A stretch of 55,758 nt of DNA from a virus, in the IMG/VR virus record IMGVR_UViG_3300021963_000156, positions 1 through 55,758 of that record; one strand, given 5' to 3'. Positions 13,200 through 37,933 of the stretch are shown here, one piece after another. How positions within the stretch are numbered: the stretch's first letter is position 1; every line of letters begins with the position of its first letter. Position numbers and translations under genes: made by a program. The notes under the pieces are model-generated. The model saw only the letters and a program-made list of their open reading frames with translations, did not search any database and was not told the DNA's origin.

Positions 13200-13275
13200 T
13201 GGTGCGTCCGGTGGGAATCGAACCCACGCATCTGGAGTTTTAGAGGCTCCTGCTGTTCCACTTAGCTACAGACGC
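13200..13275 (-). tRNA. Amber-suppressor tRNA, anticodon CTA
   Basis: A full cloverleaf: acceptor GCGTCTG/CGGACGC, D stem GCT/AGC with GTGG in the loop, anticodon stem GGAG/CTCC with an unpaired C-A next to loop CTCTAAA, T stem GTGGG/CCCAC, discriminator A and encoded CCA. The central triplet of the loop is CTA, which reads UAG. It is 9 kb away from the tRNA array, directly after the SPFH gene and before a gene with an early in-frame UAG. The amino acid it carries cannot be told by eye. Confidence 0.8.
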
Positions 13276-24679: not shown

Positions 24680-25888
24680 ATGAGATTCTTTGAATTTAAT
24701 CAATCAATAAACGAAGGCGGTGATTCCAAAAGCACTCAGTTTAACTCTGAAGTAGGCTTATTAGCCGCAATGTGCGGAGTAGATCCTGCTTCCTTTGACC
24801 CAAAAAATCCTGCCCCTAGTTTTGCTAACAGTACCTATACAGTAGGTAATAGTACCTTTGCTAACATTCAAGCACAGGCAGATAATCACAATCCTACAAA
24901 ATTTAACAAGTGGGTCACTAGTGTGGGACCTAAAGTCGCTAACTTGATTCTAACAGAGTTAACCAAATTGAAAATTCCGGCACCAACTGAGCTATCGTGG
25001 GTAGGTGGTCAGAATCAATCAAGCGTGGCTGATGTTAAATTTGTAAATCATCCAGTAGACGGTATTAGTGTTAAGGAAGCAGGAGCTCCTACATTGGCCA
25101 ACCTAACAGCTAAATCTCTAGGGTTAGACGGTGAGGATCCTGATGTTTTCCGTCAACACGCCCCAGCCGAGTGGGATGCTGTCAAACAATATGTATTCAA
25201 GAAGGTAATTGAAATTGCCAAAGCTCAACCAGGCAAAGCATTTTCACCCATCAAGTCTAAGTATAGCATCACTTATATGGAAGGCGAAATTCCACAAGAT
25301 GCTAAACGGTTAAAAGTTCCTAAGCCTCCCCAACAACAGGCACCAGCTGTAGAAGAAGATGTAGCCAGCGGTGGGTATTTTGTTATCAACTTTGGAGATG
25401 GCATAGTCAATGAACCCGAAGAACGTATCATGACAGACTTGCCGAAAAACGCAGCATGGCAGCGAGTATTCGGTGATTACTTTCAAGGCTATTGGAATAA
25501 AGATACTGATCTTAAACAATTAGGCGAACGTCTGTTTATTAAAATCGGACAAGACTTCGTAGCTAAGATTAAGCTAGGACTGGCACAAGCTGCTAAATTA
25601 CACAGTGCTGTAAAAATGGGAGATAAGAGTTATTTTTATGCGACCCCGAAAGCAGTATTCTATGTTCCATCGGTGACTAGTACTCAAGGTTTAAAACTAG
25701 TCGACCTAAAATACACTGCCCCAAAAGGAACGAATCAGAACTTCTTAGCGACTATTGGGTATCCTGGGCAGACACCAGCCAGTGTACTGATCTATATTCG
25801 TTATGCTAACGGTATCTTTCAAACTAATCCTACCGTAAGGGTACAACGACTCACTAATCCCGAAGGACTAGGTTGGATTAAATTATAA
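24680..25888 (+). CDS. Putative internal head protein, possibly nuclease-like
   Basis: 402 residues. The N terminus MRFFEFNQSINE|GG looks like a T4 capsid-targeting sequence: a short aromatic segment ending in IxE, the site of the prohead protease (cleavage after Glu proposed). Three other proteins in the window begin MRxFEF or MRxTEF (48993, 49370, 52542). The middle region has SVADVKF and GISVKEAG, spaced like the acidic-x-Lys core of PD-(D/E)XK nucleases, which is only suggestive. Such proteins are packaged and ejected with DNA. It is isolated on the plus strand. Confidence 0.5.
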   Translation: MRFFEFNQSINEGGDSKSTQFNSEVGLLAAMCGVDPASFDPKNPAPSFANSTYTVGNSTFANIQAQADNHNPTKFNKWVTSVGPKVANLILTELTKLKIPAPTELSWVGGQNQSSVADVKFVNHPVDGISVKEAGAPTLANLTAKSLGLDGEDPDVFRQHAPAEWDAVKQYVFKKVIEIAKAQPGKAFSPIKSKYSITYMEGEIPQDAKRLKVPKPPQQQAPAVEEDVASGGYFVINFGDGIVNEPEERIMTDLPKNAAWQRVFGDYFQGYWNKDTDLKQLGERLFIKIGQDFVAKIKLGLAQAAKLHSAVKMGDKSYFYATPKAVFYVPSVTSTQGLKLVDLKYTAPKGTNQNFLATIGYPGQTPASVLIYIRYANGIFQTNPTVRVQRLTNPEGLGWIKL

Positions 25889-26560
25889 TTCGGGAAATAA
25901 GCAGTCCTGGATAAAGACCCTAACATCTTCTTCATCAAGACCTAGACTAGTCATGACCCGCGGAGTATGCGGGTTTTGTTTTTGATTCTGTGCGTAAAAG
26001 TTCTGTTCGAATGTAGCATCAGCAACTGTGTTATTAGTTTCACCCACGGTTTCTAAGTAATGGTTTGCCAATATATGTGCCAATGATTCTATCTGATTGA
26101 GTTCTTCATCTTTTTGTACATTACCCGCAGCGACCATATGCGGGCTGAAAATACGCTGTGCCCAGTCAGGCAATTCACGCTTGCGAATCCATTCATATCT
26201 AGCGACTTCTTCGGCAAAGTACTGTATCATATGATGTTCTCGATCTGTGGTAGGACTGTAGTCAATAAAACAGCCAGTGATCTTATTCTTACCAGCTATT
26301 ACATCAAAGCCGAATATAGGTGCCGGGTTATGGATATGAGGGAATACACAGCAGTGCATCATCCAGAGGCCCTTTGTGGATCGGGCATCGACTACATCGA
26401 TATGGGCTCTACGATAATTTCCGCTAGACCAAACCCTATTAACCCAACCCGGCTGATTGAATCGATTCATTCCTGGTTCAAAAATCTCTACACCAGTTTC
26501 TGAAAATAATCTTTCTAGCGTTTGTTGGATATCAACTAGTTTGTTCCAAACTTGACTCAT
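25883..26560 (-). CDS. pcyX: Ferredoxin-dependent bilin reductase (PcyA/PcyX-like)
   Basis: 225 residues, the usual length of the family. MMHCCVFPHIHNPAPIFGFD and the following VIAG (residues 67-90) match the PcyA core, with the His (near 69) and Asp (near 86) that correspond to the catalytic pair. FIDYSPT and the later ELPDWAQRIFSPHMV also align by eye. These enzymes reduce biliverdin to open-chain bilins using reduced ferredoxin. PcyX, a close relative, is known from oceanic phage metagenomes with a heme oxygenase neighbour. Here the gene starts inside the 3' end of the heme oxygenase gene (29-nt overlap), so the two form an operon. The symbol is tentative: it could be PcyA-type. Confidence 0.8.
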   Translation of the reverse strand: MSQVWNKLVDIQQTLERLFSETGVEIFEPGMNRFNQPGWVNRVWSSGNYRRAHIDVVDARSTKGLWMMHCCVFPHIHNPAPIFGFDVIAGKNKITGCFIDYSPTTDREHHMIQYFAEEVARYEWIRKRELPDWAQRIFSPHMVAAGNVQKDEELNQIESLAHILANHYLETVGETNNTVADATFEQNFYAQNQKQNPHTPRVMTSLGLDEEDVRVFIQDCLFPEL

Positions 26561-27089
26561 TGAGTTCCTTCATTATAGCTATGGCATGATCGAATGCGAT
26601 ATTAGCTTCATCGCCTAGATCGTCTGTGAGTTTGGCTCGTATCTTACCTATTAATTCTTCTTTATTTCTAAATTGATAGAACTTACCGCTACCGGGTACT
26701 TTTTTAGCAATCATCTGGCCGCCATATAGATCTCCCATATGACGTACATATAGATGAGCCATTAGTAAGTGGTGTTTAGTTTCATCTTCTGCGAGGGCAG
26801 AGAGGTATTCAGAATAGGCACTAGTGGCTTCTAGTATCTTTATACCGGTTAGGGGAATATCTAGTTCTTTTAGATCTTCAAAAATATATAAGGCACGACC
26901 TAGTCCGGGCAGATCTTTTAGTAGTTCTGCTTTTACGCAATAATATTCTAGTTTGCCGTAGACTTCCAACATCTGGGCTAGATAAAGCCCGTACATTTCT
27001 TTACTGATTTTTCCGCTCAACAAAAGTTTAGCAAATTCTGTGCGTTCTGCGTCCTGATGCTTTTCTTTGGTAAGTTCTTTAAGACTCAT
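26532..27089 (-). CDS. ho: Heme oxygenase
   Basis: 185 residues. It begins MSLKELTKEKHQDAERTEFA, the heme oxygenase N terminus with proximal His 11, and has the LLMAHLYVRHMGDLYGGQM segment of the distal helix with conserved Gly residues. The reaction opens heme to biliverdin, CO and iron using O2 and reduced ferredoxin. The substrate and product fit the adjacent bilin reductase. Cyanophages carry ho for phycobilin synthesis; here the host appears non-photosynthetic, so the product may feed a bilin-binding photoreceptor or scavenge iron. Confidence 0.88.
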   Translation of the reverse strand: MSLKELTKEKHQDAERTEFAKLLLSGKISKEMYGLYLAQMLEVYGKLEYYCVKAELLKDLPGLGRALYIFEDLKELDIPLTGIKILEATSAYSEYLSALAEDETKHHLLMAHLYVRHMGDLYGGQMIAKKVPGSGKFYQFRNKEELIGKIRAKLTDDLGDEANIAFDHAIAIMKELNESSLEQTS

Positions 27090-27496: not shown

Positions 27497-27937
27497 TTAC
27501 TTAACCTCAACCACTTCGATCTGGCGTGGTAATAGAGCCTCTGGAACCTTGCGTTCGATCTGGATTAATAGCAGACCGTTTTTAATTTCGGCCTTAATTA
27601 CTTCCATATGTTCCGCAAGTGTAAATCTACGTTCAAAATCTCGGAAACCAAGTCCACGATGTAGATATTCTGGAACATGGGATTCTGTCACTGTTTTTTG
27701 TCCACGGATCGTTAGTTGATCACCTTCAATTTCTACGTTGACTTCATTTTTTTCAAAACCAGCTACTGCGATAACAATATCGTAAAGATTTTCTGAAACT
27801 TTCTCAATATTGTATGGCGGATAGTTATTGGTTAATTGATTAGCAAATCGTGTTTCAAAAGTGTCAAACAACTGATCAAACCCAATTAGAGCTCTGTTAA
27901 GAGCATTAGTGTCAAAACGTGTTAAATTACCATTCAT
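27497..27937 (-). CDS. hsp20: Small heat shock protein (Hsp20/IbpA)
   Basis: 146 residues. An alpha-crystallin domain is seen from about residue 43 (YPPYNIEKVSENLYDIVIAV...), with the GLGFRDFERRFTLAEHMEV strand and an A-x-x-x-G-L-L motif (AEIKNGLLLI) in place. It ends with an I-x-V type tail (QIEVVEVK). The N terminus MNGNLTRFDTNALNRALIG resembles IbpA. Such proteins hold unfolding clients for DnaK, encoded next door. Hsp20 genes are common in cyanophage-type myoviruses. Confidence 0.9.
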   Translation of the reverse strand: MNGNLTRFDTNALNRALIGFDQLFDTFETRFANQLTNNYPPYNIEKVSENLYDIVIAVAGFEKNEVNVEIEGDQLTIRGQKTVTESHVPEYLHRGLGFRDFERRFTLAEHMEVIKAEIKNGLLLIQIERKVPEALLPRQIEVVEVK

Positions 27938-27995: not shown

Positions 27996-29861
27996 TTAAG
28001 TAGTTTGCTTAAACTCCGCATCGACCACATCGTCTTTACTGTCCTCAGTATTTTGAGATTGCTTAGACTCTGCGATCTTTTGGCTGGCAGCAATCAAGTC
28101 GCTGGTCTTTTGAGTGATAGCGTCTTTGTCTGTGCCAGTCAATTCTTTCTGAAGTTCGGCAATAGCGTCCTCAACAACTTTCTTATCTGATTCTGCTAGA
28201 GTAACTTCTTTCATATCATTTTCAACAGTATTAATTAATGCTTCGGCATTATTCTTAGCATCAATCAACTCACGTGCTTTCTTGTCGGCTTCGGCATTGG
28301 CTTCGGCATCTTGGATCATCTGATCGATTTGATCCTTGCTTAGACCAGAATCTGATTTAATAGTGATCTTATTTTCCTTGCCTGTGCCTTTATCCTTGGC
28401 TGAAATATTCATGATGCCGTTAGCATCAATATCAAAGGCTACTTCAATCTGTGGAGTACCACGACGAGCTGGAGCAATACCTTCTAGATTAAATTCACCT
28501 AGTAATTTATTATATTGGAATAGCTCACGTTCGCCTTGACCGACTTTGATAGTAACAGCAGGCTGATTATCTTCAGCAGTTGAAAACACCTGTGATGCTT
28601 TAGTTGGGATAGTTGTGTTCTTTTGTACAAGTTTGGTAAACACACCGCCCATGGTTTCGATGCCTAGGCTTAACGGAGTAACATCTAACAACAACACGTC
28701 GTTGCGATCACCTGCTAGAACAGCACCTTGGATGGCCGCACCAACTGCTACTGCTTCGTCTGGGTTGACATCGCGTCTTGGTGCTTTACCAAATAACTTT
28801 TCAACTTCTTCCTGTACCTTAGGCATACGTGTCTGGCCACCTACTAGGATGACTTCGTCAATGTCCGAGGCACTCACACCTGCATCCTGAAGAGCAGTGC
28901 GGCAAGGTGCTAGTGAGCGGTTGATCAGATCTTCAACTAATCCTTCTAATTTTGCCTTAGTTAGTTTAACGATTAGATGTTTAGGACCCGAGGCATCAGC
29001 AGTGATATATGGCAAGTTGACTTCTGTCTGTGAACTATTAGACAATTCAATTTTGGCCTTTTCAGCTGCATCTTTTAGACGTTGTAGAGCCAGCATGTCT
29101 TTAGTCAAATCAAAACCTTGTTCTTTCTTAAACTCGTCGACCAAGTAATCCATAATACGTTGATCAAAGTCTTCACCGCCTAAGAATGTGTCGCCGTTCG
29201 TGGACAATACTTCAATTTGTTTGTCGCCGTCTACATTCGCGATCTCAATGATCGATACATCGAAAGTACCGCCGCCAAGATCGTAAACAGCAATTTTCCG
29301 GTCAGCTTTATCAGCTTTATCAACGCCATAAGCAAGAGCTGCCGCAGTAGGCTCGTTAATAATACGGAGTACTTCCAAGCCTGCGATTTTTCCAGCATCC
29401 TTAGTCGCTTGTCTTTGGCTGTCGTTAAAGTACGCAGGAACTGTGATAACGGCTTGTGTAACTTCATGTCCTAGATAGTCCTCTGCTGTTTTCTTCATCT
29501 TGCGAAGAACTTCAGCACTAACCTGCGGTGGGGCAAGTTCTTTATCTTGTGCCTTAATCCAAGCATCTCCATTAGAGGCTTCCATGATTTGATATGGCAT
29601 CAAGTCAATATCTTTTTGTACTTCTTTTTCTTTAAATTTACGACCAATCAAACGCTTCGAAGCATAGATGGTGTTTTTTGGATTAGTTACCGCTTGGCGT
29701 TTTGCCGAAGCACCAACTAGTACTTCATTTTCAGTATAGGCAACAATACTAGGTGTAGTACGGGCACCTTCTGAATTTTCAATAACTTTGGAATTTCCTG
29801 ACTCGATGATAGCCACGCATGAATTGGTGGTTCCGAGGTCAATACCGATGACTTTGCTCAT
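27996..29861 (-). CDS. dnaK: Chaperone DnaK (Hsp70)
   Basis: 621 residues, full length. [14 protein letters not shown], the ATPase phosphate loops ([27 protein letters not shown]-type region), the substrate-binding domain and a C-terminal DVVDAEFK end are present. A complete phage DnaK is rare compared with Hsp20. No DnaJ or GrpE is seen here. Two hairpins lie in its 5' leader (TTTGTAG/CTACAAA and GGGC-AGTA-GCCC, 29880-29940), perhaps a regulatory or thermosensing region. A 9-bp hairpin GAGTTTAAG/CTTAAACTC overlaps its stop codon. Confidence 0.95.
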
Positions 29862-31202: not shown

Positions 31203-32940
31203 ATTTTCTTGAGTATTTCGGTTATGGTTTCGAGATCTAATGTTTCTAAGTCTTCTGGATTTATCAATCTTGATCTTAACTGAATGATGAGATTAATGAT
31301 ACGTTGATATTCAGCATCCTCGACTTCTGGAAATTCATAAGTGTCGATGATTTCGTTGGAAAGATATGTGTAAAGTTCGTTGATAAGATCAAATCGATGA
31401 TCTTCGTGTTTGACGTTTTTAAAACTTTTCCAAATAGTAGATTCATTCTGTTCAGAATTTTGTCTATATCCTACTTGAGTGGTTTCTGTATCTGTGTTGA
31501 ACCCATCTTCTCTAGGTAGGTCATATCCTTTTTTTTTAGATCGCTGAGTTTTAGAGATTCGCTCGGCTCTATAACTTCTGTAAGATCAGGCTTAAATCTT
31601 TCTTCTGTTTGAACTGTAGCATTATAACTGTCTGCTATAGTTTCTGGGGAAAGAGAGTCTGTAACGTAATAAGGCTCTTTCATCCAGGGCAATTCTGTAA
31701 TAGTCCCGTGATCAAACATTCGTCTTTGACGCTTTAGACTATCATGTGGATGTTCGGCTTTCCACGCAGTCATTGCTTCTTTTTCTAAGCGATCGGCCCC
31801 GTCAATTATTTCTTCGTCTTCTTTGTCTTGTTCTTCTTGAGCAGCACGTTCTGCTTCTTCAATCATCTTGTTCCAATCTTCTAGAGCAGATTTTTCTTCG
31901 TCTTTGATCTCTTCTTTAGTAGAACCTAATGTAAAACCTTTAACTGAATTTAGAATATTTGATAATCTTAATTTTGTTTCATTGGGCTGATCGACTGAAA
32001 CTTCACCGGCTAGTACTGCCGCATCAGGATCCGGATTTCTTACAGGAAACGGCCAAAACTTGATGGTGTTAGCATCGTCTAGCACGTTTGTGGATTGTTC
32101 TTGTTTATCCCAGAAGCGAGCACGTTCTTTGACCTTATCAAACCAGTTGCTGACTTCAGTATCTTCGGGCTCAGTAGGCCGCTGACCACGAGTCCATTGA
32201 TAGGTCATCTGACTGCCTAACAGCAATAAAACAGCCAGTGGATCGAACACAATAACGATAATAATAATTACCCATGTCACTGCTTTTTCTAATACATTGG
32301 CATCTGGGTTATCACCGTATATTAGTTTGGCGATATATTTTATTGGGCCAACTTCTGCTTCAACCTTACGAACCTCGGCGGCGATGGGTGCCCTTTCTTC
32401 ACTAAGGGCGGCAATAGTTTTCTGTTCGGCTGTAATCTCAGATTGAAGGCGGACACGTTCTTTTTGCTGTGCTCTTCGGATTGCAACAGCTTTGTCGGCA
32501 CCTTTTTCATCACTGCTTCGACCCATAACTTGGTCCACAGCCTCATCCATCTGTTTAATCGCTTTCCGGTTCGCATCGATATTGTCCTTTGCTGTTTTAA
32601 TCTTTTCATCGTAGATGGCGATCTTACTTTGAACATCACCGCTGACAATATTTTGATCTAAGTGTGCTTTTGACAGAAAACCAAAAATGCCCATCGACGT
32701 GATCAACATAAGGACCACTACTGCGATAGACATGTAGATTTTCATGAATCGCGGAATTGATTCCCAATAGGCTTTGAGCCAACTGGCTGCTACTAGTTTG
32801 GCTACTTCTAGTGTGGTGCCCATGACCACTACTGGCCAAAACGCCGCAGCAAAAATAGAAGTTAACCCTATAACGCTGTAATAGATTGCTACAGCGGATA
32901 GGGTTATACCTGTTAGAAATAGTAATAAGGCAAATATCAT
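31199..32940 (-). CDS. Membrane coiled-coil protein with proposed -1 frameshift fusion
   Basis: The zero-frame ORF (31471-32940, 489 residues) has four membrane helices, two at the start, one near residue 70 and one near residue 230 (VTWVIIIIVIVFDPLAVLLL). A long coiled coil sits between helices 3 and 4 and a cytoplasmic charged domain follows. It reads CTA-AAA-AAA-AAG at 31528-31539, the E. coli dnaX-type slippery heptamer A-AAA-AAG, and ends 57 nt later at a UAG. The -1 frame is open past this site for 109 codons (GYDLPREDG..., ending LKKI) to a TGA at 31199 that overlaps the ATG of the next gene. That downstream frame has no ATG, GTG or TTG start. A -1 frameshift would give a 580-residue fusion. 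Confidence 0.7.
31528..31537 (-). promoter_or_regulatory. A-AAA-AAG slippery site for -1 frameshifting
   Basis: Nine A then G, in frame as CTA AAA AAA AAG. Slippage by one base into the -1 frame opens the 109-codon extension. No Shine-Dalgarno-like stimulator is obvious; a weak CCTAC/GTAGG pairing lies downstream. Confidence 0.65.
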
Positions 32941-32950
32941 AGAGTATTAT

Positions 32951-33355
32951 TTATTCTATATTATACCACGACCAATAATTATTCCAGTAGGTATGACAAG
33001 CAGCCTGAGTCTGTGCTACTTTTTGATCAAAGGCAAATACCACTGTTCTTATATGTTTACAATAGCCTCCAGCTTTAGGTTCTAGTTGTAGAACTTGGCT
33101 ATAACCGTAGGCACCGCCGTTAGACCATTTAACTTTTTCATTAACTTCGGCATATACCATGGCATGCCACTGAGCCATAGAGTAGTGTTCCATCTGTTCA
33201 TCAGTAAAAGTTTTGAACCAACCAAGACTAATAGTAGGAGCTACCCTTAATGTATCTCTGTAAAGGAGTTTTGGAAAATCACTTGATTGCTGTGCTGAAC
33301 AGAATATTGGAATCACCATTAGGATCTTTACAAACAATAACCGTACGCGGTACAT
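32951..33355 (-). CDS. Secreted hypothetical protein
   Basis: 134 residues from the ATG at 33355 (another start near 33320 is possible). A signal peptide is visible (LLFVKILMVIPIFCSA). The mature part is Trp/Tyr/Gln-rich with YGYSQVLQLEPKAGGYC and a C-terminal HTYWNNYWSWYN. It overlaps the lipoprotein gene upstream by about 77 nt in another frame. Confidence 0.55.
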   Translation of the reverse strand: MYRVRLLFVKILMVIPIFCSAQQSSDFPKLLYRDTLRVAPTISLGWFKTFTDEQMEHYSMAQWHAMVYAEVNEKVKWSNGGAYGYSQVLQLEPKAGGYCKHIRTVVFAFDQKVAQTQAACHTYWNNYWSWYNIE

Positions 33356-33638
33356 AATTTTTTGGTCCTTTCTGCATATACATTTCTGTGTAACCACAAT
33401 TCTTAGCCAATCCGGCTCTAACATCCACTAGTTTTCCTACTACGTCGTCACTACAGGTAGTGACACTTTCGCTAGAAACTTCTTTGCCGTCTTTGACTGT
33501 GATCCTTTTATTATTGAAACAGTATTGATGACCGTTATCAGCAATTTTAGGATTAGAACCGCAACCAGTCAAAGCAATTACAACAAACAGCAAAGCAACG
33601 ACTATCCAAAGATAGTTTTTTACTTTGTAATTGTTCAT
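33279..33638 (-). CDS. Lipoprotein
   Basis: 119 residues with a lipobox (VIALTGC, Cys near 26) and a mature domain with four further Cys (YCFNNKR, TTCSDD, KNCGYT, IVCKDP). Likely lipidated and periplasmic. No family recognised. Its stop lies inside the next gene. Confidence 0.65.
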   Translation of the reverse strand: MNNYKVKNYLWIVVALLFVVIALTGCGSNPKIADNGHQYCFNNKRITVKDGKEVSSESVTTCSDDVVGKLVDVRAGLAKNCGYTEMYMQKGPKNYVPRTVIVCKDPNGDSNILFSTAIK

Positions 33639-34117
33639 TACTGTACCTTTGCGGTTTTAGATTCTGCGATTAGTTGTTCAAAAACACTTTTCTTCATTTC
33701 AAGACGCACATAGGTGTAGTGACGTCCATTCATAGTAAAGTGACCTTTTTCTGTTTTTACGTGTTTACGGATTGATGTATTATCTACTTTGTAAGAAATC
33801 AAAGTGCGTGTTGCCTTCTTGTCATCTTTGATATCGATTACAGTTTCAGAATTAACGATGCCGTTAATGCGTTTGGCAAAGTTATTCATTGCGATAGCGT
33901 CCATTTGTTCTTCTGCGGCTTGAGCGTAAACTGACTCTCCAGCACCGCAAGCATAGACCATGTCTTCTTTCCACCAGAACCAACCTTTAACACCCTCTTG
34001 AGCACAGTCTTGATACCAAGATGGTTGAGCATAAGTTTTACGATCTGGAATATCTTTCATTGACGAACAGCCGGTAATAGCTGCTGCCAAAATGCTTACT
34101 GCGATTGCCTTTTTCAT
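33638..34117 (-). CDS. Lipoprotein (LPP20-like)
   Basis: 159 residues. MKKAIAVSILAAAITGCSS gives a lipobox at Cys 17. The mature part (PSWYQDC..., ACGAGESVYAQAAEEQ...) resembles the LPP20 outer-membrane lipoprotein family in the AGES-x-Y-x-x-A-x-x-x-A segment. First gene after the promoter at 34153, cotranscribed with the next lipoprotein. Confidence 0.7.
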   Translation of the reverse strand: MKKAIAVSILAAAITGCSSMKDIPDRKTYAQPSWYQDCAQEGVKGWFWWKEDMVYACGAGESVYAQAAEEQMDAIAMNNFAKRINGIVNSETVIDIKDDKKATRTLISYKVDNTSIRKHVKTEKGHFTMNGRHYTYVRLEMKKSVFEQLIAESKTAKVQ

Positions 34118-34152
34118 ATGTGCCTTTCTGTGTGTGAATTATTACAGTATTA

Positions 34153-34181
34153 ATTATAGCACCGTAGCCAACCAATGTCAA
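34153..34181 (-). promoter_or_regulatory. Consensus sigma70 promoter
   Basis: TTGACA (34176-34181), 17-bp spacer, TATAAT preceded by TGC (34153-34158), upstream of the LPP20-like gene. Confidence 0.85.
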
Positions 34182-34198
34182 CTACGGTGATAACCAAT

Positions 34199-34519
34199 TT
34201 ATTTGAAAAAGATCAATGCCATCATTGCGGCTTGGACGATAAATCCAAAGCCGATAGTTACCAAAAGCAAAATATCTTTTTGGACTGCGGCACGGATAAA
34301 CATCAGAGATAAGCCAGTCCAAACTAGCAGTACCAAATCGACCCCAGGCAGACGATCTGTTAGTCCTGCCATTACTGCTAATAGACTAGGCAGTGTTGAA
34401 GCATGAAGGACTAATACGGCTAGCCAACCCAATGCTTCTGCTGAGATATGACTTAATTTTTCGTTGAAAAAACTTTTAACTGATTCGAGATTAAATTTCC
34501 AATCTTTGTTATCTAACAT
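34199..34519 (-). CDS. Membrane protein, three helices
   Basis: 106 residues. After a polar N terminus (MLDNKDWKFNLESVKSFFNE) come three membrane helices (WLAVLVLHASTLPSLLAVMA, VDLVLLVWTGLSLMFI, ILLLVTIGFGFIVQAAMMAL). A holin is one possibility given the cell wall hydrolase next door, but there is no proof. Confidence 0.6.
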   Translation of the reverse strand: MLDNKDWKFNLESVKSFFNEKLSHISAEALGWLAVLVLHASTLPSLLAVMAGLTDRLPGVDLVLLVWTGLSLMFIRAAVQKDILLLVTIGFGFIVQAAMMALIFFK

Positions 34520-34521
34520 GA

Positions 34522-35073
34522 TTATATCCGAGACCTTTCTCTATAAAAAATATGATTTCCAATCTGACCAATCTTGTCCAGGTGCCATTTTGGATTCACA
34601 TAGTTAGCATGATAATACAACGCATCTTTGAGAACACTCAAACGGAAGTCTTCCAAAAGAACTTTTTTAGCCACCTCGTAGCTTTCTTTGTAAGCGGCTG
34701 GATTAACAGGGCGTGTTTTATGGATTGAATCGCAATACCATGAGAATTGGCATACGACTTTGTCCATGATCACACTCTTTTGATAAATCACACCGCAAAT
34801 ATCTTTAGGGAAACTTGGGTGGTTGACTCGGTTAAGGGTCACTTGTGCTACAGCTACTTTGCCTTCGAAATTTTCGTAGCCAGCTTCTCTGTAGATATTC
34901 ATCGCCAAACAATCTAGTTGGCGTTCACGTGTTTTGATTGAAATCACATCTTGGCTGTAATAACCATTCTGTGCTTTAAGGGTTGTAAATTTACTAGTGG
35001 TTATCATCTGAACTAGATAAACAACCGCAATAAATCCCGCCACATAGGCGATTAGTCTTAATGACTTTTCCAT
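34522..35073 (-). CDS. SleB-type cell wall hydrolase
   Basis: 184 residues from the ATG at 35073 with AAAGGAG upstream. One N-terminal membrane anchor (AYVAGFIAVVYLVQMI) leads to a Hydrolase_2/SleB domain: LDCLAMNIYREAGYENFEGK holds the catalytic Glu, and VAVAQVTLNRV and ALYYHANYVNPKW follow. The family cleaves peptidoglycan glycan strands. With the three-helix protein immediately downstream it is the likely lysis module. The 270-nt leader is highly structured. Confidence 0.85.
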   Translation of the reverse strand: MEKSLRLIAYVAGFIAVVYLVQMITTSKFTTLKAQNGYYSQDVISIKTRERQLDCLAMNIYREAGYENFEGKVAVAQVTLNRVNHPSFPKDICGVIYQKSVIMDKVVCQFSWYCDSIHKTRPVNPAAYKESYEVAKKVLLEDFRLSVLKDALYYHANYVNPKWHLDKIGQIGNHIFYRERSRI

Positions 35074-35119
35074 ATTGTATCTCCTTTCATTTGGTGCGAA
35101 CAAAACATCATTCACATTA

Positions 35120-35326
35120 CATTAAGGGAGTTAACTTCACGAGGCTCATTGAAAGAACCCTGACATACGTGTAGTTGTCTCCATTGGACACATGATCTCA
35201 TAACTCATATGCCTTTGGAGCCTTGACCGCCCGAATCTCACGGGTTTCTCATAGGCCAAGACTCGCGGAACCTTTTCAGCTTGTGACATACTTCGGTTCT
35301 ACTATCTTAGTTTCTTTGCGAAACGT
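35120..35326 (-). ncRNA. Structured leader or RNA upstream of the SleB gene
   Basis: About 210 nt between the HNH gene and the SleB gene with many complementary segments: GTTTC/GAAAC, GAACC/GGTTC, AGTCTTG/CAAGGCT around CCCG-TGAGATT-CGGG, CATATGA/TCATGTG, TCCA/TGGA and GGGTTC/GAGCCT. An extended -10 promoter (TGC-TATAAT, 35350-35355) predicts transcription from about 35343. No terminator follows, so it may be a long 5' leader that controls the lysis gene. A 47-codon frame (35146-35289, MSQAEKVPRVLAYEKPVRFG...) lies inside without a good ribosome binding site. Confidence 0.5.
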
Positions 35327-35349
35327 TTAATATATAGCATACTTTCTCT

Positions 35350-35378
35350 ATTATAGCACAAAAATTGGTAATTATCGA
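35350..35378 (-). promoter_or_regulatory. Extended -10 promoter
   Basis: TGC-TATAAT (35350-35355) with only a weak -35 (TCGATA). It would start the structured leader of the SleB gene. Confidence 0.5.
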
Positions 35379-35797
35379 CGTTTTTTGGCAATTTTTTTTG
35401 AGTATTCCATCAAAACATCATCGCCATACGTACTTTTGGCATTGTTAACCCAATGTGTAACCAATCTCACATTGCCTTTAATATACCCTTTGGTATTATC
35501 TACTCTATCAATGCTTAATCGATTTGGATTCTTACATTCTCTAGTACCCGATTGGAATTCCATCTCTACGCCACTAATGGCACATTTTCCTTTTTGTTCC
35601 CAATAAAGAGCTACAAGATATTCTCGATCTAAGTTATGATCGAAGCCGTGCTTGAGTGCTCGCTTTCTACTATCTGAAATAATATTAACAGACATCCACG
35701 GCCCTGGATCATTATAAGCATTGGTTAAAGCACGATGCCTATATCGTTCTCTATTATCCATATCTATTGGTTCTCCGTATTTTTCAAAAAATGTCAT
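35372..35797 (-). CDS. HNH endonuclease
   Basis: 141 residues. GKCAISGVEMEF, the NPNRLSIDRVDNTKGYIKGN segment and VRLVTHWVNNAKS form an HNH core typical of phage homing endonucleases: the first Cys of the zinc pair, the metal His/Asp region and the final Asn. It lies next to a structured RNA, as homing nucleases often do with introns, but flanking exons were not recognised. It may be a free-standing homing element. Confidence 0.8.
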   Translation of the reverse strand: MTFFEKYGEPIDMDNRERYRHRALTNAYNDPGPWMSVNIISDSRKRALKHGFDHNLDREYLVALYWEQKGKCAISGVEMEFQSGTRECKNPNRLSIDRVDNTKGYIKGNVRLVTHWVNNAKSTYGDDVLMEYSKKIAKKRR

Positions 35798-35798
35798 A

Positions 35799-36179
35799 CT
35801 ACCTCCTCATAGTGGCGATATCGATCGCTTCTTCATCAGAAAAAATCGGCACCGCATTGGACTTATGCATAGTACCAATGCCTTTGATCATAGTGCCAGT
35901 GTATACTTTATTTGGGGACTTAAGGCAAGGTGCCATATTAGTGGGATCCAAACTAGGTATATGCGGAGTCTCTCGACGATATGCTTCTTCTCGAGGTTTG
36001 TATGTTTCGGATTTGGATTTCTTTTTTGGAGATGGAGAAATGTTATGTCGTTTTAACAGATCTTGCCAATCGTCCTTCAACTGTCTGGCTTTCCTGGCAT
36101 GTTCTGCTGAACGAAATTTCTGCTTGCCTTTTTTCTTGCCAGTGGTACTGAGCCACGGGCCTTCTAAATGCATAGTCAT
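35799..36179 (-). CDS. Conserved basic phage protein
   Basis: 126 residues from the ATG at 36179 (GGAG 5 nt upstream). A basic N terminus (STTGKKKGKQKFRSAEHARK) leads to a conserved-looking C terminus (YTGTMIKGIGTMHKSNAVPI then FSDEEA), a pattern I associate with hypothetical proteins of aquatic T4-like phages. Possibly nucleic acid binding. First gene after the promoter at 36209. Confidence 0.65.
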   Translation of the reverse strand: MTMHLEGPWLSTTGKKKGKQKFRSAEHARKARQLKDDWQDLLKRHNISPSPKKKSKSETYKPREEAYRRETPHIPSLDPTNMAPCLKSPNKVYTGTMIKGIGTMHKSNAVPIFSDEEAIDIATMRR

Positions 36180-36242: not shown

Positions 36243-36260
36243 AGCCCACCGAAGTGGGCT
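36243..36260 (-). terminator. Hairpin after pqqA
   Basis: AGCCCAC-TTCG-GTGGGCT, seven pairs with a TTCG loop, followed by TTCTCTTG. The U tract is weak, so it may be a partial terminator or a 3' stabiliser of the pqqA mRNA. Confidence 0.6.
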
Positions 36261-36269
36261 AGGTCTTTA

Positions 36270-36341
36270 TTATCGATTCATCACGTACATAGTGATTTCG
36301 AATCCGTAACGCATTTCAACTGCTTCTGGTTTTGTCCACAT
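36270..36341 (-). CDS. pqqA: PqqA-like PQQ precursor peptide
   Basis: 23 residues: it starts MWTKPEAVEMRYGFEITMY and ends VMNR. This matches the PqqA plan (M-W-x-K-P ... R-x-G-F-E-[VI]-T-x-Y-x-x-N-R) in full, including the Glu and Tyr (E15 and Y19, three residues apart) that are crosslinked to make PQQ. The ribosome binding site AAGGAG is 7 nt upstream. Neither pqqB, C, D, E nor F is seen nearby, so the host enzymes would mature it. PQQ is the cofactor of methanol dehydrogenases in methylotrophs. A precursor gene alone could raise cofactor supply during infection. Confidence 0.88.
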   Translation of the reverse strand: MWTKPEAVEMRYGFEITMYVMNR

Positions 36342-36449
36342 AATCGTACTCCTTTTAATTAAAAACATACTGCTCTAGTATGTATCGTTATTATATGACA
36401 ATATCACCGTAAAGCACATAGTGAATATCATTAAAAGGAGATAGCAATT

Positions 36450-36956
36450 TTAACTATTCAAAACTTTGGCAACGCTATTCATTACACTGGCAATACGTCC
36501 AATATCGCGAAGTTGTTCTACTGTGTAGCCTTCCTTCTTGAGTGTTTCGTAATGTGCCTTGACACAGAAATGACATTTGCCCACAATGCTAGCTGCCAAA
36601 CTAAATGCTTCAAAGTTTGACTTAGTAGTTCCGCCATGACTGGCAATAGCATTCATACGCAGGCCTGCTGGCAATCCTTTAAGAGCAGGATCGTCTGCCA
36701 TTTCAACATATGGATACCATACATTGTTCTGTGCCATAATACTTGCGGCTGTCATGGCAGCATCTGCGTGAACAGGGCCATCTGCCAATAGTACAGCAAG
36801 TACTTTACCGTTACCAGTTGCGGCCAATGCTGCTACAGCACATCCCATAGCTACATCGGCATCCAACGTGCTACGTAAAAGAACAGCATCAAGATTTAAC
36901 TTAGTGTCTTTGGCATAGTCTGGTAATACTTCTTTTACCGAATCAATAAAACTCAT
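36450..36956 (-). CDS. ahpD: AhpD-like alkylhydroperoxidase
   Basis: 168 residues. The C-terminal KCHFCVKAHYETLKKEG holds the CxxC-x(3)-H motif of AhpD peroxidases, with the Glu and His partners upstream (e.g. ASHGGTTKSNFEAFSLAASI). Length is that of AhpD. In bacteria AhpD reduces AhpC; here an AhpC gene is 0.4 kb away, so both partners are present. ATGA overlap with the SGNH gene. Confidence 0.88.
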   Translation of the reverse strand: MSFIDSVKEVLPDYAKDTKLNLDAVLLRSTLDADVAMGCAVAALAATGNGKVLAVLLADGPVHADAAMTAASIMAQNNVWYPYVEMADDPALKGLPAGLRMNAIASHGGTTKSNFEAFSLAASIVGKCHFCVKAHYETLKKEGYTVEQLRDIGRIASVMNSVAKVLNS

Positions 36957-37366
36957 CGTGTTTGATCTCCTAAGATTTTATAACCACGCCCAGTAGGATG
37001 AACGCCATCGGCACTCATATGATTCTTTGGACGTGGAAGAATGGTGTCTCCGTACTCTCGGGCAATGCGAACTATAGCATCGTGCGGAATGGGTTTACGA
37101 TCCTGTCCTGGATCAATCCAAAATACACGATTGCCTTTGACTGCTTCTCGCATCTTGCGAAGTTCTTGCTCAGTCTTAACACCTTTGTGATCGTTGGCAC
37201 CAAGACTGATAATTACGGTTTGAGCAGGTTGACTAGATGCTTTACTCAAGTAGTCCTTGTTCCACTGCCAACTGTTCCACCCCCCTTTGGAGTAACTTAC
37301 ACACTCTGGACGAGCCATTGATGTGCCTACAGCAATACTATCGCCAATAATCATGCAGTCTATCAT
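36953..37366 (-). CDS. Small SGNH hydrolase
   Basis: 137 residues. Block I is CMIIGDSIAVGTSM (Ser at about 10), block III is VIISLGANDHKG (GxND), and block V has the DGVHPTGRGYKIL pair (D-x-x-H). All four catalytic blocks of a GDSL/SGNH esterase are visible, which makes it the best supported of the three SGNH genes. It sits between ahpD and ahpC in one operon; the substrate is unknown. Confidence 0.85.
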   Translation of the reverse strand: MIDCMIIGDSIAVGTSMARPECVSYSKGGWNSWQWNKDYLSKASSQPAQTVIISLGANDHKGVKTEQELRKMREAVKGNRVFWIDPGQDRKPIPHDAIVRIAREYGDTILPRPKNHMSADGVHPTGRGYKILGDQTR

Positions 37367-37375
37367 GTCGTCCTC

Positions 37376-37933
37376 TTAGAGTGTTTCGCCGCCAACTGTA
37401 CGATTACAAGCACATAGTTCGCCAGTTTGTAACGCATCCAATACACGAAGTGTTTCTTCTGGACTACGACCAACGTTCAAGTTGTTAACAGTAACGTGTT
37501 GGATAATATTGTCCGGGTCAATGATGAATGTAGCACGTAATGCCGCACCTGCTGGAGCATAGAATACACCCAACTGTTCGATTAGGCTTAGATTTTCCAT
37601 GGTCTCATCATTCCAACGCTGTGTATCAGCGAACTGAAAGTGTTTGATATTTTTTAAATCGGGATGGGCATTTTGCCAACTGACTTTACAGAACTCGTTG
37701 TCTGTGCTACCTGTAAGTAGAACAGCATCGCGGTCCTCAAAATCTTTAGACAATTTGTCGTAGGCAACAATTTCTGTTGGGCACACGAATGTGAAATCTT
37801 TTGGATAGTAAACGATTACTTTCCATTTACCTTCAAAAGATTTTTCTGTGATGTCAAAGAACGCATCTTGTGGTTGTCCTGGTTTGACTCCAGTTACTGC
37901 GAATTTTTCTAGTTTGTGTCCGACGGTTTTCAT
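37376..37933 (-). CDS. ahpC: Peroxiredoxin AhpC
   Basis: 185 residues. YPKDFTFVCPTEI holds the peroxidatic Cys with Thr and Pro, and GELCACNRTVGGETL has the resolving Cys pair at the C terminus. It reduces H2O2 and organic peroxides. With AhpD downstream it forms a complete reductive pair. Phage AhpC/AhpD may protect phage replication from respiratory peroxide. Starts the 36.4-37.9 kb operon. Confidence 0.93.
   Translation of the reverse strand: MKTVGHKLEKFAVTGVKPGQPQDAFFDITEKSFEGKWKVIVYYPKDFTFVCPTEIVAYDKLSKDFEDRDAVLLTGSTDNEFCKVSWQNAHPDLKNIKHFQFADTQRWNDETMENLSLIEQLGVFYAPAGAALRATFIIDPDNIIQHVTVNNLNVGRSPEETLRVLDALQTGELCACNRTVGGETL

Follow-up and report, generated by a model that had tools for sequence, protein, structure and literature searches.

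A short gene for the precursor peptide of PQQ, pqqA, was found in a window of 55,758 nucleotides (the whole stretch of DNA analysed here), which comes from a linear viral fragment recorded in IMG/VR, and its open reading frame (ORF) was confirmed at the sequence level as encoding a genuine, phage-borne PqqA. It is likely that a functional phage pqqA adds precursor dosage to the infected cell, where host enzymes would finish PQQ and methanol dehydrogenase would stay supplied. This reading is supported by the identity of the peptide, its conservation under purifying selection, the methylotroph-only named hosts of the phages that carry it and the fact that the host family possesses PqqE.

Identity of the phage-borne PqqA

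Read on the minus strand from 36341 to 36270, the ORF consists of 23 codons and a stop, encoding MWTKPEAVEMRYGFEITMYVMNR*, and nothing relevant was read on the plus strand at these positions. The initial annotation had placed PqqA with its Glu and Tyr at 36270-36341 and had given no strand; its coordinates and its identification stood, and the strand was corrected to minus. Both curated models were passed over their full length, with the Pfam model PF08042 reaching 35.6 bits against a cut-off of 21.1 (E 8.8e-9, positions 1-19 of 19) and the NCBIfam equivalog TIGR02107 reaching 34.6 bits against a cut-off of 20 (E 1.2e-8, positions 1-21 of 21). Additionally, a degenerate PqqA pattern had a single match in the 55.8 kb window and none in 100 dinucleotide shuffles. 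The residues turned into PQQ correspond to Glu15 and Tyr19, in the spacing E-x-x-x-Y, read here as E-I-T-M-Y. The peptide has 23 residues with its own start and all viral copies have 23-25, the norm for PqqA being about 22-29. PHROGs was found to hold no PqqA family, and a PDB sequence search with the 23-residue peptide gave no match. The usual, not obligatory, position of pqqA at the head of a pqqABCDE cluster was not observed in the window, which is no bar to membership since standalone pqqA is normal in Methylophilaceae (PMC4109929).

An auxiliary metabolic gene is expected to lie in a real virus genome, and this was evident both from pqqA in sequenced phage isolates and from the phage genes of the window, which include matches to a phage-type ribonucleotide reductase, a tail-spike-like protein, an exonuclease, an endolysin and a virion structural protein. 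The window also contains 24 tRNA genes and a permuted tmRNA. One tRNA, at 13200-13275 on the minus strand, has a CUA (amber) anticodon and was called tRNA-Pyl by ARAGORN; because TAG ends only 3 of the 55 window ORFs examined, an amber suppressor is possible. Other genes observed in the window were a phage-encoded fatty acid desaturase (PF00487; 17851-18564, plus strand) and, on the minus strand, a DnaK-like gene (27996-29861), about 65% identical to bacterial DnaK, beside an HSP20 gene (27497-27937). A bilin-synthesis pair, formed by adjacent genes for a ferredoxin-dependent bilin reductase (PF05996) and a heme oxygenase (PF01126), lies at 25883-27089, minus strand; the phage probably infects a non-photosynthetic host.

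Genomic context of pqqA

The signals and genes around pqqA are given in Table 1. The strong ribosome binding site and the downstream hairpin described in the initial annotation were both recovered, the latter as a terminator-like structure with a T-rich tail, and the terminator scan found 2 sites versus 0.1 expected. Upstream, the TATAAT box lies about 7 nt ahead of a leader hairpin with a 7 bp stem, and TGCTTTA is found 14 nt upstream of the box; a sigma-70 scan of the window did not call this box, so a pqqA promoter is put forward as a suggestion only. The same series of -10 box, hairpin, Shine-Dalgarno motif, ORF and terminator was observed in a related contig of 17.9 kb, L014, whose ORF carries many synonymous changes and whose terminator-like hairpin lies in the same place, others being found 3' of pqqA in contigs L044 and L317. 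L014 and the window also have in common a gene block on the downstream side of pqqA (window 31471-36179). With its promoter-like box, Shine-Dalgarno motif and terminator, pqqA thus looks like a monocistronic unit. Among the neighbours, the AhpD-like gene scored 120 bits with TIGR00777, under the cut-off of 192, and the downstream phrog_27048 protein is related to proteins of Delftia phage PhiW-14 and Acidovorax phage ACP17, both phages of betaproteobacteria.

Table 1. Features at and near pqqA in the window
Feature	Position	Strand	Basis
Permuted tmRNA, tag ANDEQFALAA	39019-39412	minus	permuted and betaproteobacterial Rfam models
AhpC/TSA peroxiredoxin	37376..37933	minus	PF00578, 70.5 bits, cut-off 26
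GDSL-lipase-like protein	36953..37366	minus	PF13472, 32.7 bits, just under cut-off 32.9
AhpD-like alkylhydroperoxidase, upstream neighbour of pqqA	36450..36956	minus	PF02627, 39.5 bits, cut-off 23
-10-like box TATAAT	36390..36395	minus	sequence and comparison with L014 (TATACT there)
5' leader hairpin ACATACT-AGAGC-AGTATGT, followed by a T run	36365..36383	minus	stem identical in L014, loop differs
Shine-Dalgarno motif AAGGAG, 5' of ATG	36349..36354	minus	read directly
pqqA, 23-residue PQQ precursor peptide MWTKPEAVEMRYGFEITMYVMNR	36270..36341	minus	PF08042 and TIGR02107 above cut-off
Intrinsic terminator-like hairpin AGCCCACTTCGGTGGGCT with T-rich tail	36243..36260	minus	terminator scan; counterpart in L014
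126-residue phage protein (phrog_27048), next downstream of pqqA	35799..36179	minus	syntenic homologue in L014

Distribution among viruses and host assignment

A tblastn search of PqqA against 50,697 phage records yielded ten credible records, namely MEP401, MEP402, MEP301, Venkman, P19250A, four Melnitz strains and one uncultured podovirus, and the same records came back when an Acinetobacter-type PqqA served as query. The only non-isolate matches in this collection were an uncultured Manatee Spring virus and two Acinetobacter 'phage' contigs; the pqqA of the latter was set aside as bacterial, the one contig of the two that was inspected having pqqB, pqqC, PqqD and a radical SAM gene. Of the published OM43/LD28 phage isolates that the collection contains, all six had the gene (MEP401, MEP402, MEP301, Venkman, Melnitz and P19250A). 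This count covers Venkman, MEP301 and Melnitz, given elsewhere as the only earlier OM43 isolates (PMC10580990), together with MEP401, MEP402 and P19250A, a phage of LD28; isolates later than these lie outside it. In the isolate records examined, the pqqA ORF was either unannotated or beneath an ORF call on the opposite strand, and none bore a pqqA label. In the publications describing MEP401/402, MEP301 and Venkman, pqq goes unmentioned, and in that on Melnitz it appears only as a vitamin of the medium.

Pattern scans of IMG/VR revealed at least 158 viral pqqA copies, the window included, of which a few contigs may be host DNA; they encode at least 69 distinct peptides and lie in at least about 25 contexts without nucleotide similarity to one another. 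Conserved phage copies, proposed in the initial annotation as a check, were found in the six isolates and in these contigs. In one record, G073, a gene for methanol dehydrogenase of the XoxF type and one for a molybdopterin protein resembling formate dehydrogenase (L354 3990-8784) lie some kilobases from pqqA, together with SoxYZ and FecR/CHASE2 genes and, further along, a tail-chaperone match. Weighed as proof of a methanol-oxidation module in phages, G073 was discounted as a probable host flank or provirus because of the SoxYZ and FecR/CHASE2 genes nearby. The odds slightly favour the broader possibility that pqqA is near-universal in phages of Methylophilales, across several unrelated lineages, with PQQ precursor supply as a general bottleneck and pqqA as the methylotroph counterpart of cyanophage psbA. 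In that case the gene would have been overlooked because, at 72-78 nt with its stop, it falls under the usual minimum of gene callers. The minimum gene length in Prodigal is 90 nt.

All phages with pqqA and a named host among the 50,697 records infect Methylophilales/Methylophilaceae. Host copies were collected by searching for E[LM]R[FY]GFE[VI]TMY in 84,980 species genomes, which gave at least 120 stretches that were sorted by title by hand. Among the matches listed, about 90 belonged to Methylophilaceae or its genera and 8 to other named groups, the remainder having uninformative titles; Variovorax, Burkholderia, Rhodocyclaceae and Burkholderiales were the other groups with this form. The tail after the Tyr was VMNK, VCNK or VCNR in 96 of the 97 named Methylophilaceae copies (VM in the remaining one) and I-x-x-R in 8/8 clearly other bacteria, again among the matches listed. 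The window peptide ends in VMNR, of the type VMN[KR]/VCN[KR]. Judging from this tail and from the hosts of the named phages, the host of the window phage is very probably a member of the Methylophilaceae, as had been proposed. The tmRNA argument for the same host fared less well: the permuted gene with its ANDEQFALAA tag does not match the five Methylophilaceae tmRNAs checked, which are one-piece genes with the tag ANDETYALAA, and the tag was rejected as a host marker. As a sequence-model assignment, the Rfam beta_tmRNA match is one that fits betaproteobacteria generally and not Methylophilaceae in particular.

This distribution bears on the possibility that methanol dehydrogenase is not what PQQ from phage PqqA is for, and that it contributes, for instance, to redox or antioxidant protection during infection jointly with the products of the nearby AhpC and AhpD genes. 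Genes for AhpC, GDSL and AhpD proteins do lie directly 5' of pqqA in the window, an AhpC/TSA gene is found about 60 nt 3' of pqqA in the unrelated contig L038 (3915-4598) and another in L327. However, the association with peroxiredoxins was observed in three loci only, most viral pqqA copies lie among unrelated genes and every named host is a methylotroph. Moreover, this use predicts pqqA in phages of other PQQ makers, and none was seen in the 50,697 phage records, which makes it unlikely.

Conservation and selection

In viral pqqA pairs at least 85% identical, pN/pS was about 0.12, compared with 0.06 in hosts, both values being rough because synonymous sites are well diverged. The dN/dS check proposed in the initial annotation thus pointed to purifying selection, and with peptides common to viruses and Methylophilaceae the gene is host-homologous and kept by selection, as expected of an auxiliary metabolic gene. 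Among the matches listed, a motif resembling a Shine-Dalgarno sequence preceded 155 of 158 viral copies, versus 5.7% of random positions, and a terminator-like hairpin closely followed 74 of 156. The exact window peptide was found only in the window and in the viral contig L320, and was absent from the sampled host copies among the matches listed.

It is also conceivable that the phage peptide acts as a decoy or regulator, occupying PqqD/PqqE or signalling, and so lowers or retunes host PQQ synthesis. Substrate mimics are able to inhibit, and more distinct peptides were found in viruses than in hosts (69 versus 35 among the matches listed). However, the reacting codons, left free in the search pattern, encoded Glu and Tyr in 121/121 viral copies among the matches listed, and several viral peptides equal the commonest host PqqA letter for letter. 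Use as a substrate is therefore favoured, and a decoy appears a little less probable even than the redox use. Finally, functionless passenger host DNA, or host DNA misassembled into virus contigs, is highly improbable: short genes transfer readily, four viral pqqA sequences among the matches listed are identical in DNA to host copies and mixed contigs such as G073, with XoxF, the formate dehydrogenase-like protein and SoxYZ near pqqA, occur in IMG/VR, but the gene's presence in sequenced isolates already contradicts this explanation, as do the strong purifying selection, the gene's own Shine-Dalgarno motif and frequent terminator, and the retention of leader, ORF and terminator in both the window and L014, even though many synonymous changes separate them.

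Proposed role in PQQ supply

Searches with models of PqqB, PqqC, PqqD and PqqE, that for PqqC run without a positive control, gave no match in the 55.8 kb fragment, in agreement with the initial annotation, which had described pqqA without other pqq genes; the record being a linear fragment and the PqqC search having had no such control, the whole phage may still carry them. A methanol dehydrogenase gene was not found in the window either. PqqE scored above its cut-off in 0/97 pqqA-bearing virus records and in 29 of 31 Methylophilaceae genomes, suggesting that the phage gives the substrate and depends on host enzymes. pqqA was present in each of the 100 Methylophilaceae genomes examined, at 1-12 copies per genome, and the coexistence of several pqqA with single copies of the remaining pqq genes has been published (PMC4109929). 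It was previously demonstrated that PqqE cross-links the Glu and Tyr of PqqA, with PqqD holding the leader (PMC10906245). Of the five pqqA copies of one methylotroph, a standalone one was among the two best expressed, and cell-free extract turned added PqqA into PQQ (PMC9851590).

The proposed mechanism is that a Methylophilaceae phage carries a functional standalone pqqA. The PqqD of the host would bind its product, host PqqE would join Glu15 to Tyr19, and the remaining Pqq enzymes of the cell would complete PQQ from the phage peptide. As PqqA is a substrate spent once per PQQ and not a catalyst, 23 codons may be enough to raise or sustain PQQ. In this way, XoxF/MxaF methanol dehydrogenase would be kept charged while the dispersed pqqA copies of the host are shut down or diluted, in parallel with cyanophage psbA, which sustains photosynthesis. 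We infer that the peptide is expressed and processed and that it affects both the PQQ level and methanol oxidation; a raised flux through methanol oxidation, as suggested in the initial annotation, is plausible. On the other hand, overexpression of pqqAB in Acetobacter increased PQQ by only 29%, versus eightfold with pqqABCDE (PMC7936290). Because pqqAB gave just this rise, PqqA alone may not be limiting. PQQ is also a stable cofactor, which counts against infection needing more of it.

Relation to known systems and biological significance

As a gene type, viral pqqA is not new, since a viral PqqA was reported in 2020 in one metagenomic population, VP_266, from Lake Baikal (PMC7678222). That case resembles the present one in its viral PqqA, its attribution to a Methylophilaceae phage and the proposed aid to methanol oxidation, but the VP_266 population also encodes methanol dehydrogenase, which the window fragment does not, and the report concerned that single population and was not extended to isolates (PMC7678222). 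What is new here is the breadth of viral pqqA and its presence in all six published OM43/LD28 isolates in the collection; such breadth or isolate carriage was not found in the open literature, a scope that leaves out bioRxiv preprints and most subscription papers. The viral gene also resembles the standalone pqqA of Methylophilaceae (PMC4109929) in its 23 residues, its location away from pqqBCDE, its own Shine-Dalgarno motif and its frequent terminator, differing in that the host copies are chromosomal. A further likeness is to psbA and other auxiliary metabolic genes, in that a host-derived, consumable part of the host energy machinery is carried by many unrelated phages. Many unrelated phages, cyanophages with psbA among them, are known to carry such host-derived energy-machinery genes. 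In contrast to psbA, whose product is a protein that turns over, pqqA yields a cofactor precursor peptide that needs host enzymes.

These findings suggest that phages of Methylophilales routinely top up the methanol-oxidation machinery of their hosts. The cultured MEP401, MEP402, MEP301, Venkman, Melnitz and P19250A make PQQ-precursor supply directly testable, and the PqqA tail offers a simple host marker for uncultured viruses. The case of pqqA also indicates that genes shorter than 90 nt slip past auxiliary-gene surveys. Methylophilaceae join algal methanol and methane-derived carbon to wider aquatic food webs, and if phages routinely supply the PQQ precursor, infection would have a direct effect on how methanol is oxidised in lakes and coastal seas.
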